A DNA stretch of 5,337 nt from positions 1 through 5,337 of the forward strand of contig CAJOIF010000069.1 of NCBI GenBank assembly GCA_905234765.1, in the 5' to 3' direction. Under the pieces are notes generated by a model. The model was not told where the DNA came from. It was given only the letters and a program-made list of their open reading frames with translations, and did not search any database. Source of the DNA: an uncultured Bacteroidales bacterium. GTDB lineage: Bacteria > Bacteroidota > Bacteroidia > Bacteroidales > F082. Shown here one piece after another: positions 2,495-5,337 of the stretch. Each line of letters begins with the position of its first letter. Within the stretch, counting starts at the first letter, position 1. The position numbers and the translations under genes are program-made.

Positions 2495-2656
2495 ATGCCC
2501 AAACTCATTTGGCTTTTCGGAAATGCCGAAAGCACTGAAAACAAAGAAGACACCTTACGACCTGATGTAGGTCTTATTCGTGTGCAATCACCAAGCGTTG
2601 CGTTTTTCCGTTGCTTGTCTTTACGAAGTAGATACCGTTTTGGTACGTGGTTGTAG
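2495..2656 (+). CDS. Doubtful 53-residue plus-strand ORF
   Basis: An ATG at 2495 opens 53 codons ending with TAG at 2654. The peptide starts MPKLIWLFGNAESTENKEDT and I recognise no family in it. The first half lies in the gap between two minus-strand genes. The second half (from about 2574) is antisense to the T9SS sorting domain of the thioredoxin-fold gene, so that part is probably not under coding selection. In its favour, a plausible promoter puts the transcript start about 18 bases upstream, as for the other genes here. The alternative is a short non-coding or antisense RNA, or no product at all. Confidence 0.22.
   Translation: MPKLIWLFGNAESTENKEDTLRPDVGLIRVQSPSVAFFRCLSLRSRYRFGTWL
2559..2573 (-). 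terminator. Weak hairpin right after the thioredoxin-fold gene
   Basis: GACCT-ACATC-AGGTC on the minus strand begins at the base after the TAA stop (2574-2576). The stem is only 5 bp. A U-rich but interrupted stretch (UCUUCUUUGUUUUC) follows about 8 bases later. This is the only terminator-like structure between this gene and the next promoter, but it is weak. Confidence 0.25.
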
Positions 2657-3650
2657 GAATGACCATTTGCGATTCCTCAGAGAAGAATGTGTCAACTTTT
2701 TGGCCCAATGTGTTGTATATGCTTATTACTCCAAGGTTTTCGCCTCGGAGGGTCACGCTTTCATTGGCGGGATTGGGGAATAGCGTCAGTGTCGAGTTGT
2801 TTTCATTTATTCCGAGGGTTGTTTCGTAAACAATGTTGACTTCAAAGTCGCCCGCCGAGGTGCTGATATACATCGTTCCTTCAAAAGTCTCCTTTACAGG
2901 TACATCAACGTAGACTTCCACGGTGGCAGACTGCCCCGCGGCTACTGTCATACCCTCGGTGACCTCTTGGCCTTCATACATGCATTGGAGCGCAAAGATG
3001 GGGTCGGCAGTGAAGGCGTTGACAGTCACATCGTCAGCGGTCATGTTGGAGATGGTCAGCAGGCCGGGCTCGTAGGTCGTTTCGTCGCTGTAAATATGTA
3101 ATGTTTGTGGATTGACGGTCAGCGTGCCTGTGCAGTCATGAGGTTGCAGGCCGTTTTGCTGCATGGCGTTGACGACATCTTGTGCCGAGAATGGATACAG
3201 TTGCAACAATCCTTGGATGGGAATGCTGCGGTCGGGCATGATGAGGACGAGTGTGGGACAGGCTTGGATGCCATAGAGCTCGAAGACCTCGTTGCCGCCG
3301 CCGTCCTTTCCGACGGTAGGAAATTCAACACCGTATTCGTTAGCCCATTGCTGGCAGACGGCATCGCTGTCGATGTAAGAGATTTCGATGTAGAACACGT
3401 CGTGCAAGTTGCAGCCCATTTGGGTATAGGAACCAGTGATATAGGGCGAAATCACCTGGCATTGGCCACAAGAATAGAAGAAAAAGTCAATGAAAACAGC
3501 TTGACCACGGTCAAGGATTTCAAAGAGGTTGTAGGTCTGTCCGTGGCAGTCGGTGACGGTGAAGTCGACGGCCTCGGTGAGGTTGGTCTGCTGGGCGCGA
3601 AGACCTGCGCCAAAGAGCAGGAAAGCAAGGAGAATGTAAAGTTTTTTCAT
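2574..3650 (-). CDS. Secreted thioredoxin-fold protein with T9SS sorting domain
   Basis: The 358-residue protein begins with a Sec signal peptide (MKKLYILLAFLLFGAGLRAQ). A TlpA/AhpC-like thioredoxin fold covers about 25-165. AVFIDFFFYSCGQCQVISPY carries the redox motif CGQC (61-64), and GIQACPTLVLI (128-138) carries the usual cis-proline, Pro132. An Ig-like beta domain at about 174-277 (similar in feel to BACON/ASH-type domains, unverified) follows. Residues 288-358 form a type A T9SS sorting domain, with LTLFPNPANESVTL, IYNTLGQKV and NGIYFVKTSNGKTQRLVI. The protein should cross the outer membrane by T9SS and be released or surface-anchored, acting as a thiol oxidoreductase or disulfide handler outside the cell. 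Its substrate is unknown. Cys131 just before the cis-proline is unusual and could interact with the active-site pair. A strong hairpin lies upstream, and no clear promoter is seen (best candidate CATATTTG, 7 of 8, just 5' of the hairpin). Confidence 0.88.
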   Translation of the reverse strand: MKKLYILLAFLLFGAGLRAQQTNLTEAVDFTVTDCHGQTYNLFEILDRGQAVFIDFFFYSCGQCQVISPYITGSYTQMGCNLHDVFYIEISYIDSDAVCQQWANEYGVEFPTVGKDGGGNEVFELYGIQACPTLVLIMPDRSIPIQGLLQLYPFSAQDVVNAMQQNGLQPHDCTGTLTVNPQTLHIYSDETTYEPGLLTISNMTADDVTVNAFTADPIFALQCMYEGQEVTEGMTVAAGQSATVEVYVDVPVKETFEGTMYISTSAGDFEVNIVYETTLGINENNSTLTLFPNPANESVTLRGENLGVISIYNTLGQKVDTFFSEESQMVIPTTTYQNGIYFVKTSNGKTQRLVIAHE

Positions 3651-3754: not shown

Positions 3755-4600
3755 TTATTGTTTCGAAATAAGTTTCACGCTTTCTCCGTTTTCGGTTGCC
3801 ACGCGTACCATATAGATGCCCGTCTGATATTGGTTCATGTCGAGGGTGGTCATGTTTCCATCGGCATCGCTATCGTAGATGACTTGACCGAGTGTGTTCA
3901 TCACGGTGATGTGGCTTAATCCCGGTGCGGCGATATTCACGTTGCCCGTGGTGGGGTTGGGGTACACAAAGACAGATTCGTTGCTTTCGCCAATCCAATC
4001 GTAACCGTCCACATAGACCCATGCCAGCCAGCTGTATACCTCGCTGCTCACAGAAGCCACATCCATCCAGCCATAGCCGTCAATGCCGAGCCAGCGGCTG
4101 TTGGGGTTGCCCACGTCGGCAACGGCTGGAGCAGGATATTGAATGGAACCGTCATGGTAGAAAGTCAACCAAATGTTTTGTGTACCATCGATTTCGACAG
4201 GTGTGTCGAGCCTGAAGGTGACCACATCACCGACTGTGCCTGTAATTTCGAATTGTTGGGTAGCAACCAAAGTGCCTGGAGCAGTATCGCCACCAAGGTA
4301 GAAGTTGACGGTGTAGGTGGTGGCAAATTGTTCTTCACCAGCATCCAAGAAAGCGAACTGGGTGAAGGAGCATCCCTTGTAGTCGTTCATCAGCTCCGCG
4401 GGGAACATGTAACCCCAGCTGAAGGGCATCCCGATGCCGATAATCTGCGGTGATGAATAATCACCGACGTAGGAGAACCAGGAACCCTCGGAAAGTTGTT
4501 GGTCATAGGAAATCATTACATTGTTCAATTCGGTGGCTTTCAGTTGGATGTCGCCACGATTTTGTGCCTGAGCCATGTTGCTAATGGTAAAAAGGCACAT
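3755..4600 (-). CDS. T9SS cargo protein, signal peptide broken by a frameshift
   Basis: The open frame of 281 residues starts MCLFTISNMAQAQNR, a half signal peptide with the AQA cleavage site but no lysine n-region. The missing part, MKKNVCFFL, is encoded just upstream from an ATG at 4631, in another frame. A tandem TCAGTCAG (4600-4607) separates them. Removing one 4-base copy fuses the two into a perfect 290-residue protein. The mature part is a beta-rich domain (about 45-200) with YLGGDTAPGTLV (101-112), IWLTFYHDG and a tryptophan-rich end. I recall this pattern from Bacteroidales surface proteins but cannot name a family. Residues 210-281 are a type A T9SS sorting domain (VFVYPNPTTGNVNI, VMNTLGQVIYD, TGIYMVRVATENGESVKLI). 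As read, export should fail unless translation shifts or restarts with a weak signal. It probably belongs to one transcript with the upstream gene, whose stop is 26 bases before the ATG at 4631. Confidence 0.82.
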   Translation of the reverse strand: MCLFTISNMAQAQNRGDIQLKATELNNVMISYDQQLSEGSWFSYVGDYSSPQIIGIGMPFSWGYMFPAELMNDYKGCSFTQFAFLDAGEEQFATTYTVNFYLGGDTAPGTLVATQQFEITGTVGDVVTFRLDTPVEIDGTQNIWLTFYHDGSIQYPAPAVADVGNPNSRWLGIDGYGWMDVASVSSEVYSWLAWVYVDGYDWIGESNESVFVYPNPTTGNVNIAAPGLSHITVMNTLGQVIYDSDADGNMTTLDMNQYQTGIYMVRVATENGESVKLISKQ

Positions 4601-4631
4601 CAGTCAGAAAGAAGCATACATTTTTCTTCAT
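4581..4631 (-). pseudogene. Detached signal-peptide start of the T9SS cargo gene
   Basis: ATG at 4631 encodes MKKNVCFFLTDVPFYH and stops at TAG (4583-4581), a 16-residue dead end. The first nine residues are a typical n-region and the beginning of a hydrophobic core, and they match what the following frame lacks. This short frame overlaps the downstream ATG at 4600, which itself overlaps a TGA of a third frame (TGATG). It is the 5' end of the cargo gene, shifted by the tandem 4-mer. Confidence 0.7.
4600..4607. repeat. Tandem TCAG duplication causing the frameshift
   Basis: Two adjacent copies of TCAG (CTGA on the coding strand) sit inside the signal-peptide codons. The period-4 pattern ends exactly at these eight bases. 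One copy instead of two reads CTG-ATG-TGC and joins MKKNVCFFL to MCLFTISNMAQAQ in frame. A tandem duplication is the simplest explanation, and loss of one copy by strand slippage would reverse it. Confidence 0.75.
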
Positions 4632-4657: not shown

Positions 4658-5337
4658 TTAATTGATGATAATGTCTTCGCTGATATGGGTGATAATGGTG
4701 TTACATTCCTCCTGGTCGTCATAGAAGAAGAGCCATAGGGTGCGGTTGTCGTAGTCGGCGGCGGTGATGTAACCCATGTGGCCGTGACTTTGGGCATCGT
4801 CCATGATGCGGTCGCCAAATTCTTTTTGCTGTTGCAGACTGGGATTCGGGCTTGTATTCGCCTGGATTTTTTCGTTAATCAGCCCAACGACAATAGCGCG
4901 TGAAACGGTTAAGATGTAGTCGTCATAGGTGTTGTCGGTGACTTCATGTTCTATCTCGCCTTGGCCAATGATGATGGCAGTGTTAGGCAGCAACGAGTCG
5001 GGAGCCTGAAAACTCTTCATGATTTCGCGAATCTTGTCTGCAACAATGAGGGTGAATTTCTCGATGTCTTTTTCGGGTATCTGACTGATGTCGGTCAAAG
5101 TGTCGAGGACGGCCTCATCCAAAAAATCAGTTTCGATGCCGACACCCACCATAACTGGATTGTCGTCGTTTGGACAATTCATGGCAGCGGTGCCGGAAGG
5201 CATCATGCCGAAATCTTGTTTCAGGGTTTCCCAGTCCGCTTCTTCGTTGGCTTGGATCATCAAGGCGTCGATCTTGTTGCCGTTGAGGCAGAAGTCGCCC
5301 ATGAAGGCCACGGTCAGGTTCGGATCCTCGGCGTATT
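4658..5337 (-). CDS. Protein of unknown function (start lies beyond the right edge)
   Basis: The frame is open from the right edge to TAA at 4658-4660, giving 225 residues without their true N-terminus. It reads through a GTG at 5311 and an ATG at 5302, but neither is needed as a start because the frame continues upstream (YAEDPNLTVAFMGDF). The protein is acidic and rich in Asp, Glu, Asn and Ile. It shows no membrane helix, no sorting domain and none of the catalytic motifs I know. Residues such as IEKFTLIVADKIREIMKSFQ suggest amphipathic helices, and the end (LWLFFYDDQEECNTIITHI) suggests a closing beta strand. I do not recognise the family. Its stop is 26 bases before the next start, so it is probably in one operon with the frameshifted T9SS cargo gene. 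The signal peptide status cannot be judged from this fragment. Confidence 0.75.
   Translation of the reverse strand, partial: YAEDPNLTVAFMGDFCLNGNKIDALMIQANEEADWETLKQDFGMMPSGTAAMNCPNDDNPVMVGVGIETDFLDEAVLDTLTDISQIPEKDIEKFTLIVADKIREIMKSFQAPDSLLPNTAIIIGQGEIEHEVTDNTYDDYILTVSRAIVVGLINEKIQANTSPNPSLQQQKEFGDRIMDDAQSHGHMGYITAADYDNRTLWLFFYDDQEECNTIITHISEDIIIN

Follow-up and report, generated by a model that had tools for sequence, protein, structure and literature searches.

A tandem duplication of the tetranucleotide CTGA splits the signal peptide of a T9SS cargo gene in the window (the whole 5,337-nt stretch of DNA analysed here), as a first, sequence-only reading of this DNA had proposed and as both the frames in the window and the intact frame in relatives now confirm. 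We consider it highly probable that this is an ordinary recent 4-base duplication, which yielded an export-null allele that would revert only passively and would not belong to an evolved switch. The split gene consists of the following elements.

4600..4607, minus strand: CTGACTGA, two tandem copies of CTGA (sequence, compared with the relatives' loci)
4581..4631, minus strand: initial half of the split signal peptide, left on its own as a 16-codon ORF MKKNVCFFLTDVPFYH plus stop (ORF reading)
3755..4600, minus strand: body of the T9SS cargo, reduced by the frame break to an ORF of 281 aa (ORF reading; identical to catalogue protein P0001)

The minus-strand ATG at 4631 opens MKKNVCFFLTDVPFYH*, which starts with MKKNVCFFL and terminates at the stop codon 4583-4581, while the 281-aa ORF MCLFTISNMAQAQ... 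is opened by the minus-strand ATG at 4600 and ends at 3755. Both frames had been named by the sequence-only reading and both are present in the sequence. Its placement of CTGACTGA between the two pieces was not wholly accurate, since the repeat occupies 4607-4600 and ends on the A of the 4600 ATG. An in-frame TGA lies two codons upstream of this ATG (TGA CTG ATG), the body frame opens immediately past the TGA at the repeat, and the leader frame continues to a TAG whose first base is 17 bases downstream of the A in the internal ATG. No second lesion was found in the 281-aa body. The single frame of 290 codons expected upon removal of one CTGA copy matches the relatives in the protein catalogue, where 114 of the 120 listed proteins (the best 120 of 257) are 289-291 aa long, and the same 22 signal-peptide residues deduced earlier from the sequence are intact in one of them, P0028.

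The comparison was made with 28 related loci, obtained from a scan with one genome per species and 70-91% identical to the window over the best aligned segment. Their titles denote Bacteroidales or Bacteroidia MAGs, 20 of which bear RUG names, which we take to be rumen genomes, 3 come from buffalo or goat abomasum and 5 are sequencing-run bins; the window bacterium probably inhabits a cow- or goat-like gut. Signal peptide and body share one frame in 26/28 loci, and none of the 27 loci in which the site can be read has CTGACTGA at that position. The closest locus (L024, 91%) starts inside the gene at a contig edge, so that the site is not readable. The frame of another locus, L023, is lost just after a signal peptide that is itself present, through a 25-base deletion of its own. 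This independent deletion (L023:4678-4860, in the orthologue of MAG RUG11504) represents a second, different N-terminal lesion in the same gene. The orthologue in the L028:6001 region keeps its signal peptide and lacks, in frame, the linker preceding the jelly-roll domain, indicating that the cargo linker is dispensable or variable.

The alignment of related genomes that had been suggested as a check thus revealed no CTGA tandem in 27 readable loci, and the outcome that would have spoken against a lesion, two copies in all related strains, was seen at species level in 0/27. Because 26/28 of the relatives' loci and most of the listed catalogue proteins are intact, and no readable locus has CTGACTGA at the site, the duplication is, on this sequence comparison, the derived state of the window's lineage. 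The difference in CTGA copies between the window (two) and the 27 readable relatives (no tandem) is a one-off, between-species difference, and relative to its orthologues the window allele carries a frame-disrupting lesion, as expected of a pseudogene. A further search in the genus of the first relative gave matches at E <= 1e-80 in 32 of 99 genomes, with no internal stops among the 35 matches listed; since 28 of the 40 loci from the genus and genome searches were copies of loci already included, these stop-free matches do not constitute independent support. The finding rests on the comparison with relatives and not on the repeat, because the number of two-copy tandem tetramers in the window is at the background level (17, versus 16.1 +/- 3.7 expected from Markov-simulated sequence).

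The age of the lesion was approached through the constraint on the body. Over 228 codons, corresponding to the coverage of L024, dN/dS was 0.073 (bootstrap 0.037-0.142) on the window branch and 0.065 (0.024-0.133) on the L024 branch, as estimated from 26 of the 28 loci (all except L023 and L028), of which 25 served as outgroups; the dS of 0.6-1.2 to the relatives makes these branch estimates a rough clock. The implied neutral fraction of the window branch was 0.6%, with the 97.5th percentile at 8.1%. Relaxed constraint or further lesions, the other marks of a pseudogene, were therefore not detected in this comparison (0.073 versus 0.065, with the body intact), and as a pseudogene the allele is young at most. 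Given a body free of decay, the mutation is either young or mild, or else the protein is still made, and the missing decay is equally compatible with a protein that is still made and useful. No intact conspecific copy was present among the best 120 of 257 homologues, the top other homologue (P0002) being 90% identical, so that the designation "recent" is supported by dN/dS rather than by a sister strain. Together, the derived site and the unrelaxed dN/dS of the body uphold a simple recent mutation as the safer reading, as had been suggested at the outset.

The body carries the two domains listed here.

3758..3979, minus strand: type A T9SS C-terminal sorting domain (CTD), residues 208-281
4004..4495, minus strand: modelled jelly-roll domain, probably lectin-like, at residues 36-199 of the 281-aa ORF

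Matches to PF18962 (50.5 bits, cut-off 27, residues 212-276) and TIGR04183 (45.4 bits, cut-off 23, residues 212-278) substantiated the earlier assignment as T9SS cargo, and the CTD of the 281-aa ORF also gave a fold match to solved CTDs. As modelled, the cargo is probably a lectin-like jelly roll joined to a CTD. SprA (TIGR04189), the component searched for, was found in 9 of 10 relatives' genomes compared to 0 of 14 control genomes. Genomes G001-G010 gave at least 44-98 matches per genome to the query, many of them to the CTD alone, and contained jelly-roll-like stretches (about 28-44% identity) in open frames that, among those listed, reach 3,792 aa.

The start of the window body resembles a signal peptide poorly, its best 12-residue Kyte-Doolittle mean being 1.04 with no K/R before the core, compared to 2.51 and two K/R in P0028. 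Read as ORFs, the window allele contains no contiguous signal peptide in frame with the body. Judged by these sequence features, the gene family is of the T9SS type A cargo kind and the window allele is not, and export of its protein should fail. We propose that CTGA went from one copy to two by a recent spontaneous tandem duplication, probably through replication slippage, within a single lineage of an uncultured Bacteroidales species. Translation from the normal ATG would then end after a 16-residue peptide, and protein initiated at the internal ATG, with no basic n-region and only a minor part of the hydrophobic core, would stay in the cytoplasm. The Sec step would fail, and with it the T9SS step, leaving the probably lectin-like protein undisplayed. 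Reversion, by loss of one of the two short repeats, would occur only at an ordinary low rate, and low-level leakage through a +1 slip over the codons following the repeat is possible in principle.

The reading that survives best beside the proposed duplication, while still unlikely, is an assembly or consensus error, with a single CTGA in the source cells and the second copy introduced by the assembler or by strain merging. Short-read errors do not usually take the form of a clean 4-base tandem. The identical truncated protein (P0001) occurs on 4 contigs in the catalogue, the longest of 39,048 bases, which makes a one-off slip less likely; nevertheless, catalogue contigs may have been assembled repeatedly from a single set of reads, and one of the four may be the window itself.

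Continued productivity of the gene, with a +1 shift near the repeat or re-initiation at the 4600 ATG giving an exported or a cytoplasmic protein, appears improbable. The unrelaxed constraint on the body would suit it, a +1 shift between the TGA of the repeat and the TAG of the leader would restore the signal peptide, and the leader stop is close enough to the internal ATG for re-initiation. However, no +1 shift signal was recognised by eye, the 27 readable relatives show no frame break at the site, and the internal start provides neither an n-region nor a long enough hydrophobic core.

The catalogue also bears on whether the signal peptide is lost repeatedly. Seven of 151 family proteins start inside the signal peptide (P0001, P0062, P0063, P0097, P0098, P0121 and P0122), where the 151 are the union of the best 120 of 257 and the best 120 of 279, the second search being enriched for truncated starts because it was seeded with P0100 on account of its truncated twin. 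The six besides the window's protein are each 98-100% identical to an intact protein: P0097, P0121 and P0122 to P0100, P0063 to P0064, P0098 to P0087, and P0062 to P0049. P0063 begins with MM at a position where L014, the nearest relative among the genomes, reads CTG ATG, which means that this start has changed in some way. In a control family, the N-terminus was missing from 4 of 109 proteins (P0236, P0237, P0238 and P0269; the 109 being those >75% identical among the best 120 of 550), a frequency similar to 7/151 (Fisher P 0.77), although the two counts are not strictly alike, as the control family's signal peptide contains no internal Met. We rejected as unproven the idea that the truncated catalogue starts demonstrate recurrent frameshifts, since the control family behaves similarly and an internal start chosen by the gene caller looks alike.

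We regard it as doubtful, about as much so as continued productivity, that loss of the export signal recurs in parallel lineages, at a contingency locus without long repeats whose export-null alleles would be repeatedly selected and later restored. Its candidates are the window, P0062, P0063, P0097, P0098, P0121 and P0122, and the 25-base deletion of L023. If such recurrent loss were true, selection could come, for example, from phage or from predators exploiting the protein on display.

The data do not support a programmed ON/OFF switch, because two-copy tetramers occur at chance level and the two units here are below the floor of three or more tandem units from which, in the available part of a Haemophilus study, tetranucleotide repeats were counted (PMC2651432). 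The earlier description of the split as potentially reversible does not hold beyond ordinary back-mutation, given only two units, 0/27 relatives with CTGACTGA and tandems at the window's background. Least probable of all is a slow contingency switch, in which changes of CTGA copy number would keep ON and OFF cells together and so control surface display: a surface protein with a frame-changing tandem near the start, as in Haemophilus (PMC2651432, as far as available), and six further family proteins lacking a signal-peptide start are in its favour, but the repeat has two units where that study counted from three, the tandem is missing from the 27 readable relatives and at background rate in the window, and lost starts are about as common in the control family. 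Other two-copy tetramers, homopolymers aside, were found in frame in the signal-peptide codons of 4/27 relatives (L004, L006, L012 and L016). A run of eight A directly follows the start ATG in 12/27 relatives (L004, L007, L011-L013, L015-L018, L021, L023 and L026) and is more slippage-prone than the CTGA pair of the window, which has five A there. We found no literature joining T9SS, phase variation, frameshift and Bacteroidetes; among the papers matching T9SS with phase variation, neither term appeared in any title or abstract, and one of them, PMC9862357, in its available part, concerns DNA-methylation phase variation.

The split gene is flanked by two conserved neighbours.

4658..5335, minus strand: upstream gene, 5' end outside the window, separated by a 26-base gap from the 4631 ATG (found in 27/28 loci)
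2574..3650, minus strand: intact downstream neighbour of 358 aa with a thioredoxin-like (AhpC/TSA) domain and a T9SS type A CTD (relative in 27/28 loci)

The full-length relative of the upstream gene in L001 has, by eye, a lipoprotein-type N-terminus. The conserved cluster (L001:4198-8061 and the matching stretch of the other loci) is headed by an ECF sigma factor, followed by a 133-aa putative anti-sigma protein, the lipoprotein-type gene, which had no Pfam or NCBIfam match, the T9SS cargo and the thioredoxin-like T9SS cargo. By analogy, the cluster is possibly a PorA/SigP-like surface-sensing circuit. Elsewhere in the window, the intergenic region 270-350 contains two units of palindrome-like sequence, 270-286 (AGCGGACTTGATCCGCT) and 327-345 (TTGCGGGTCACGCCCGCAA), which resemble a REP-type repeat; the exact pattern of the TTGCGGGTCACGCCCGCAA unit was present in 0 of 75 loci searched.

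By itself, one young loss-of-export allele is of little weight. The annotation of such an allele as a 281-aa protein with an internal start can hide the split signal peptide, so that such genes can go uncounted when T9SS cargo is tallied in metagenome assemblies. Were the locus recurrently switched off, it would offer a natural readout of selection on the surface proteins of gut Bacteroidales.

The closest known systems include T9SS type A cargo proteins, with which the relatives share a signal peptide, a globular domain and a CTD, whereas the signal peptide of the window allele is not contiguous. PorA of Porphyromonas gingivalis, according to the available part of PMC7712824, combines a FimH-like lectin domain with a CTD in a small protein and is encoded upstream of the ECF factor SigP. 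The cargo described here is likewise small, with a CTD and a probably lectin-like domain, and the relatives' cluster is headed by an ECF sigma factor; in this comparison by description, the modelled window cargo differs in that its best fold match is Cwp84. The tetranucleotide phase-variable genes of Haemophilus, whose usual layout in the available part of PMC2651432 is a frame-changing tandem near the start codon, resemble the window in that a surface protein gene has a frame-changing unit near its start, and differ in having three or more units instead of two, with no such repeat at the site in our relatives. The lacI hotspot, in the available part of PMC3485313, consists of three CTGG units, and lacI is put out of frame and inactivated when a unit is added or lost. 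The window resembles it in that a change by one 4-base tandem unit likewise shifts the frame and inactivates the gene, but the ancestor of the window apparently had one unit, unlike the three of lacI, and gain and loss of the CTGA unit would for this reason not be expected to be fast.
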